Shown here one piece after another: positions 41,572-41,770 of a stretch of DNA of 64,000 bases. The notes below the pieces were generated by a model. The model did not search any database and was not told the DNA's origin. It saw nothing but the letters and a program-made list of their open reading frames with translations. Within the stretch, counting starts at the first letter, position 1; every line of letters starts with the position of its first letter. The stretch covers positions 248,001 to 312,000 of the forward strand of contig DATETJ010000009.1 of assembly GCA_035283685.1 (NCBI GenBank), given 5' to 3'. This DNA comes from Candidatus Bathyarchaeia archaeon. Its GTDB lineage: Archaea; Thermoproteota; Bathyarchaeia; Bathyarchaeales; Bathyarchaeaceae. Made by a program: the position numbers and the translations under genes.

Positions 41572-41672
41572 TGGTAGCGGGGGGTAGATTTGAACTACCG
41601 ATCTCTGGGTTATGAGCCCAGCGGGTTAACCTGGCTACCCCACCCGTGTAGGACCTGCAGCTAGGTCTCGCT
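41572..41672 (-). tRNA. Initiator tRNA-Met (CAU) with acceptor-stem intron
   Basis: Read on the minus strand, D arm (GGGT/ACCC), anticodon arm (CTGGG-CTCATAA-CCCAG) and T arm (GGTAG-TTCAAAT-CTACC) are perfect, and the 3' strand of the acceptor stem CCCCGCT is followed by A and an encoded CCA. The matching 5' strand AGCGGGG is only obtained by removing 23 bases (41646-41668) between its fourth and fifth nucleotides. The spliced molecule has the A1-U72 pair and three G-C pairs next to the anticodon loop, the marks of an archaeal initiator. The anticodon is at 41612-41614. Confidence 0.92.
41646..41668 (-). other. 23-nt tRNA intron in the acceptor stem
   Basis: The flanks fold into a bulge-helix-bulge. 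The outer helix is ACC/GGT and the central 4-bp helix is GTAG/CTAC. Three-base bulges are CGA on the 5' side (cut after CG) and ACG on the 3' side (cut after AC). The intron hairpin is GACCT-AGCTGC-AGGTC. This is what archaeal tRNA splicing endonuclease recognises, and the predicted cuts restore exactly the acceptor stem. Confidence 0.88.
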
Positions 41673-41770
41673 ACGGTTTTTCCCCGCCATCTTCAGAGTT
41701 GATGGATTCGCGAGCTTAAAAGGTTTTTATGGCTGCATCGGATATGGCTATAACCCGTTTGGCACCATAG

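Follow-up and report, generated by a model that had tools for sequence, protein, structure and literature searches.

A copy of the acceptor strand in the leader of archaeal initiator tRNA genes with an acceptor-stem intron: a candidate placeholder during splicing

Introduction

How can an intron occupy a stem that forms only when its two strands meet? The question is raised by the initiator tRNA-Met gene of a Candidatus Bathyarchaeia archaeon, in which an intron of the bulge-helix-bulge (BHB) type separates nt 4 from nt 5, inside the acceptor stem. Archaeal BHB introns in tRNAs have a 4-bp central helix and two flanking 3-nt bulges, with each cut placed after the second bulge base. Archaeal initiator tRNAs carry an A1:U72 pair, three G-C pairs in the anticodon stem and the anticodon CAU.

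BHB introns are known at many tRNA positions, and the available text of PMC4090602 includes 3/4 in Thermoproteales among them. A sequence-only reading of this DNA had stressed the unusual site; an acceptor-stem intron as such is not unprecedented, given the 3/4 report. Pairing leaders are known from split tRNAs (available parts of PMC4090602 and PMC4033280), and mobile elements have been proposed to duplicate 5' fragments of tRNAs (available part of PMC3293823). The striking part of the present locus is not the position of the intron. It is a duplicated acceptor strand in the leader, absent from the sequence-only reading and lying beyond the coordinates that it covered.

Results

The sole initiator gene detected is interrupted after nt 4

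The gene lies on the minus strand of the window (the whole stretch of 64,000 nt that was analysed, G000:C9:248001-312000), with nt 1 at 41672 and the CCA at 41574-41572. Its features, in the order of transcription, are:

41716-41721, minus strand: TATA-box-like TTTTAA, centre 30 nt upstream of the leader copy
41682-41688, minus strand: leader copy of the acceptor 5' strand, GGCGGGG; with the preceding U (41682-41689), 8 nt pairable with the 3' end CCCCGCUA; proposed placeholder
41675-41677, minus strand: 5' strand of the BHB outer helix, ACC, in the leader; partner GGU at 41642-41644
41671-41674, minus strand: 5' strand of the BHB central helix, GUAG, made of leader -2 and -1 and tRNA nt 1-2; partner at 41648-41651
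41669-41672, minus strand: exon 1, nt 1-4 (AGCG)
41646-41668, minus strand: BHB intron of 23 nt, AGACCUAGCUGCAGGUCCUACAC, spliced between nt 4 and 5
41652-41667, minus strand: inner intron hairpin GACCU-AGCUGC-AGGUC, arms at 41667-41663 (GACCT) and 41656-41652 (AGGTC)
41648-41651, minus strand: 3' strand of the BHB central helix, CUAC, within the intron
41575-41645, minus strand: exon 2, initiator tRNA nt 5-73, anticodon CAU at 41614-41612 (ARAGORN, Rfam)
41576-41582, minus strand: acceptor 3' strand CCCCGCU; proposed partners are the leader copy before splicing and the spliced AGCGGGG after it
41572-41574, minus strand: genome-encoded CCA end

The hallmarks of an initiator are all present (A1:U72, a GGG/CCC anticodon stem, CAU). 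Excision of 41646-41668 joins AGCG to GGG, and the resulting AGCGGGG forms 7/7 pairs with CCCCGCT (41582-41576), restoring a standard tRNA; the splice point is unique, because a shift in either direction alters the product. The bulges are CG^A (41670-41668) and AC^G (41647-41645), with the cuts at the standard bulge positions. The sequence-only reading had proposed this intron, the completed acceptor stem and a canonical BHB (GUAG/CUAC, bulges CGA and ACG, inner hairpin); its placement of the intron proved correct to the base and every element was found where it had been put, with pair changes in relatives. The exons lie in order, 23 nt apart and behind one predicted promoter, so that a split or permuted gene was rejected. 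Free folding of the window precursor is modestly better than that of shuffles (z -1.9).

On the unspliced gene, ARAGORN returns only a truncated tRNA-Met (41572-41644) and Rfam a tRNA at 41575-41649 with 48.2 bits and three acceptor pairs broken. Both programs thus detect the gene and misplace its 5' end. tRNAscan-SE 2.0 extends candidates by 60 nt for terminal BHB introns, according to the available part of PMC8450103, so the gene might well be annotated correctly, contrary to the sequence-only reading, by which an annotation tool would probably miss it or call it defective.

The genome is archaeal, 2.28 Mb in size and 98% complete, and the initiator sequence is matched in it once. A second CAU initiator, suggested as a check, was not detected in this genome; its other CAU tRNAs (L003, L024) have G1 and different bodies. 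The genome also encodes one RtcB, RNase P RNA and two splicing endonuclease genes, L237 (G000:C2) and L238 (G000:C4). One endonuclease is closest to chains 3p1z/3ajv and the second (L238) lacks the catalytic His by eye, which suggests a heterotetrameric enzyme, a type that we infer from these two features.

The 4/5 intron recurs in two archaeal classes

Comparison with related genomes, also suggested by the sequence-only reading, placed the 4/5 initiator intron in 25 genomes, 18 of Bathyarchaeia and 7 of Thermoplasmata. The former come from a search of 257 Bathyarchaeia genomes for an interrupted initiator and fall into three families; the latter are the true cases among 80 Thermoplasmata genomes searched by the same criteria. 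Neither search required anything upstream of the gene, so the 25 loci were collected without regard to a leader copy. Intron length ranges from 16 to 42 nt, position 4/5 is common to all, and this recurrence in 25 genomes argues that the intron is not due to chance. The four central-helix positions are paired in 23, 25, 25 and 24 of the 25 loci with exchange among GC, AU and GU pairs (G021, G022 and G023 have one mismatch each); the first two pairs of the inner helix, represented by up to five pair types, are kept in 24/25 and 25/25 loci, and outer-helix pairs one to three, between leader bases and nt 6-8, are standard in 25/25. Conservation, these pair changes and the presence of the required enzyme genes support a BHB intron in the sole initiator detected.

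A scan of GTDB 220 in which the leader copy was required returned, false matches aside, only members of Bathyarchaeia (one of them labelled uncultured archaeon) and of Thermoplasmata. The pattern also matched Meiothermus, Hymenobacter and Chloroflexi (L151, L153, L159, L160); these matches and the phylum matches L189 and L190 were discarded, having no tRNA body downstream, as were matches such as L183-L188, which are intact initiators with a chance AGCG upstream. An RtcB tree, poorly supported at its root and at several forks, shows intron-bearing genomes interspersed with intron-free ones within the family, so the intron has probably been gained or lost several times.

Two same-family initiators without the 4/5 intron (L071 in G015, L072 in G026) have an unusually long leader ending in CACC(G/A)U plus one base; this end resembles the outer helix of intron-bearing relatives and is maybe a footprint of intron loss. 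The leader of a Thermoplasmata initiator without the 4/5 intron (L196, G591:C116:1484-1534) keeps ATAGCG...CTAT, like a BHB central helix, possibly as a relic. Initiators of related genera have T-arm insertions, accompanied in several by one in the anticodon loop (L111-L116, L138-L140), or an insertion in the D-loop (L119), and some initiator genes (L075, L174) combine the 4/5 intron with further introns.

A copy of the acceptor strand in the leader is tied to the 4/5 intron

A leader strand pairing with the 3' acceptor strand (CCCCGC) is found at 25/25 loci with the 4/5 intron and at 0/93 uninterrupted initiators, although the loci are related and the counts are not independent events. The comparison set consists of 93 distinct initiator genes with an unbroken acceptor strand. 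Where the intron is present, the best duplex of the leader with CCCCGCUA lies between -9.2 and -16.1 kcal/mol, and where it is absent the value never falls below -8.6; at least 6/7 bases are identical to the acceptor 5' strand in 23/25 leaders with the intron versus 0/93 without. Since 44 of the 93 copy-less genes carry other introns, in the anticodon loop, the T-loop or both, the copy is tied to the 4/5 intron and not to introns generally. The copies in G190 and four Thermoplasmata are exact; those of the Thermoplasmata genomes G597 and G601 are degenerate. As judged from the sequences, pairing of the leader with the 3' acceptor strand is well supported.

The distance from the TATA-like box to the copy is about 28 nt in most Bathyarchaeia, 27-30 nt in most loci of f1, f11 and f13, and 30 nt in the window; for Thermoplasmata the automatic TATA search is unreliable. 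At about 28 nt from such a box, the copy probably forms the extreme 5' end of the transcript, and transcription should begin at the copy or just before it, the TATA-like box serving as the guide to the start site. A general promoter element was rejected, as the copy is missing at other genes of the same genome and its sequence goes by isotype.

The same arrangement in tRNA-Gln and other isotypes

Three other low-scoring tRNAs of the window genome, both tRNA-Gln and Arg(CCU), have a copy of their own acceptor sequence:

L209, G000:C11:227722-228194: tRNA-Gln with a 10/11 intron, leader copy AGCCCGG
L210/L240, G000:C9:545936-546392: tRNA-Gln with a 10/11 intron, leader copy AGCCCGG
L211, G000:C4:18380-18853: tRNA-Arg(CCU), intron with a relaxed BHB near 8/9 or 9/10, leader copy GGGCGG

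A degenerate tRNA-Ala(UGC)-like copy also lies in this genome (L208, G000:C10:119060-119134), some 0.9 kb from the intact gene (C10:120017); it is possibly a pseudogene or an attachment-site remnant.

The central helix of the Gln 10/11 intron is formed by nt 5-8 (CGGU), so this intron, too, borrows the acceptor strand. Among 35 distinct Gln loci, gathered by a class-wide search with the intron pattern alone together with order-wide loci, AGCCCGG or GGCCCGG stands in the leader in 35/35, as against 0/26 Gln genes without the 10/11 intron. Intron, BHB and copy thus occur together in both main isotypes. Ten Gln genes belonging to other families of the phylum have a leader strand that has diverged in part (AGCUCGG, CGUCCGG, CGCCUGG and AGCUCGU are among the forms outside the class) and that still forms 6-7 of 7 pairs; one pair is lost in several of the copies outside the class. 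Another family of the phylum has a Pro(UGG)-like tRNA with a 10/11-type intron (L340, G422:C34:12698-12728); its acceptor stem is GGGCCGG/CCGGUCC, and its leader GGACCGG is the exact complement of the 3' strand and not a copy of the 5' strand.

When 71 loci are pooled, with the Gln loci outside the class entered by hand, 36 of the 47 substitutions in the copy preserve pairing, as changes from A to G facing U or from C to U facing G; seven pairs are kept in 60 loci and six in 11. G015 and G026 bear the copy on their intron-containing Gln and none on their own initiator, which is without the 4/5 intron. Pair-keeping substitutions, the L340 complement and this contrast together argue that the leader strand follows the 3' strand of its own gene; judged by the sequences, the copy goes with the gene and not with the genome. 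Within an isotype the support consists of one-sided pair-keeping changes, because the 3' strand is nearly invariant there, and two-sided pair change is seen only between isotypes. The proposed rule that a leader carries a complement of the 3' strand if, and only if, the BHB borrows the acceptor 5' strand holds for the initiator, for Gln, for the further cases and for one Arg.

Folding predicts competition between acceptor stem and splice motif

In ViennaRNA runs with the tRNA arms fixed, and with every leader and intron joined to one common tRNA body, the leader copy occupies the 3' strand with a probability near 1 in most loci, and native pairing of nt 1-4 has a probability of 0. When the copy is replaced in the initiator, native pairing returns and the mean BHB probability decreases from 0.44 to 0.19; in Gln it decreases from 0.78 to 0.11, while the native stem rises from 0.08 to 0.93. 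These shifts imply that acceptor stem and BHB compete and that the copy decides against the native stem; a switch between two stems is thereby predicted. For the window gene, the BHB probability is 0.04 with the copy and 0.03 without, so that in the model the copy clearly blocks the native stem, but formation of the BHB would depend on the enzyme. In 14/25 initiators the leader copy remains favoured over the native strand in the model of the spliced RNA, and the exchange would therefore need trapping by RNase P, coaxial stacking or a helper.

Discussion

A placeholder strand that may permit splicing

The BHB uses tRNA nt 1-2 and 6-8 together with five leader bases, and acceptor stem and splice motif are therefore mutually exclusive. 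We consider it probable that the leader copy serves as a placeholder, which fills the 3' strand, permits the BHB and keeps the short 5' exon attached until both splicing and cleavage by RNase P have restored the true stem. The initiator pre-tRNA would be made with the BHB intron inside its acceptor stem, and the copy at the transcript 5' end would pair with the 3' acceptor strand to give a stand-in acceptor stem, leaving the real 5' strand free for the BHB. The splicing endonuclease would excise the 23 nt; after cleavage the leader helix would hold the 4-nt 5' exon to the body, and RtcB would ligate AGCG to GGG. The restored AGCGGGG would then displace the leader copy, and an RNase P cut at 41672/41673 would make the exchange irreversible. 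Splicing must precede RNase P, because the BHB includes leader bases. The tethering, the order of the steps and the action of the enzymes as named are what we infer from this arrangement; tethering is a likely second benefit, as the 4-nt exon would otherwise be held by little after cleavage.

The alternative that deserves most attention is a passive scar, whereby the insertion that created the intron duplicated the acceptor strand and left a direct repeat without a role. Direct repeats near the borders have been reported for many introns (PMC11782384), and mobile-element integration that leaves tRNA fragments has been proposed for Caldiarchaeum tRNA-Thr (available part of PMC3293823). The spacing from the TATA-like box fits a copy that represents the former nt 1-7, and the exact copies noted above would also be expected of a repeat. 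However, the copy persists in different genera and families whose spacers differ in both length and sequence, most substitutions preserve pairing, the L340 leader is closer to the complement of the 3' strand than to the 5' strand, and relatives without the intron are also without the copy. We therefore regard a scar without function as unlikely, although a scar may be the origin of a copy that later turned functional.

Quality control as the main role of the leader helix is less probable still. Here the leader helix would cover the 3' end and prevent charging, or an early RNase P cut, of the unspliced initiator. In several f1 genomes the cover would extend to the discriminator and CC, and in many the leader GGUGGCGGGG is pairable with CCCCGCUACC; the order of splicing before leader removal agrees as well. 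This extension is not general, however: the window gene has only UGGCGGGG and Gln copies mostly UAGCCCGG, and the same rule applies to the elongator Gln. A further reading, very improbable, takes the leader copy for the true acceptor strand and the stretch from the copy through nt 8 for a larger intron. The copy does pair over 6-8 nt with the 3' strand and sits at the position expected for nt 1 of an ordinary gene, but no BHB forms at such borders, the BHB cuts exactly at 4/5 in all loci, and position 1 of the copy is G or U in 20/25 loci, which would lose A1:U72, whereas the downstream strand has A1 in 25/25. A decaying or inactive gene, to which the interrupted stem with its truncated ARAGORN call and broken Rfam pairs might point, is hardly credible for the sole initiator found in a 98%-complete genome, with promoter-like box, BHB and body intact and conserved.

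Relation to known tRNA genes

Taken alone, the intron belongs with the known BHB introns. It shares with the non-canonical introns of Thermoproteales and Thaumarchaeota the 3-nt bulges, the 4-bp central helix, the short length and EndA-type cleavage, and differs from them in its 4/5 position in an initiator, in a BHB built partly from the leader and in a leader that complements the 3' acceptor strand. In the split tRNAs of Nanoarchaeum, Caldivirga and Aeropyrum, a leader outside the mature tRNA likewise pairs, holds the exons and presents the BHB; unlike these, the present gene yields one transcript in cis, and its leader pairs with the mature 3' acceptor strand and not with another leader. 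The permuted tRNA-iMet of Thermofilum pendens (PMC3218864) is another unusual initiator in which tRNA sequence separates the promoter from the 5' half. That gene has its 3' half upstream, with the junction at 59/60, whereas here only a 7-nt spare strand is present and discarded. In Caldiarchaeum tRNA-Thr, too, an intron was gained and a duplicate of the tRNA's 5' part lies upstream, yet by the available part of PMC3293823 this fragment lies 1.8 kb off in a polymorphic population, while the copy here is conserved, within 30 nt and in the predicted leader.

The available text of PMC4090602, PMC4033280, PMC8450103 and PMC3293823 does not mention a leader strand that pairs with the molecule's own mature 3' acceptor strand, and no description of a leader placeholder strand was found in the open-access literature searched. 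As judged on that literature, what is new is the intron together with its placeholder strand. With its occurrence in separate lineages and isotypes, we lean towards seeing the placeholder as a general, previously undescribed cis-splint in tRNA maturation, a disposable helix that would give the precursor a tRNA-like fold, and a possible route for introns into the acceptor stem.

Such a spare strand would answer the question posed at the outset, and the placeholder reading predicts the order of processing, splicing and then RNase P. Annotators could also use the leader copy to recognise tRNA introns near the 5' end. If the two copies recombined, an intron-free gene would result, suggesting how such introns arise or disappear. 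The start tRNA of these archaea, in turn, should depend on splicing.
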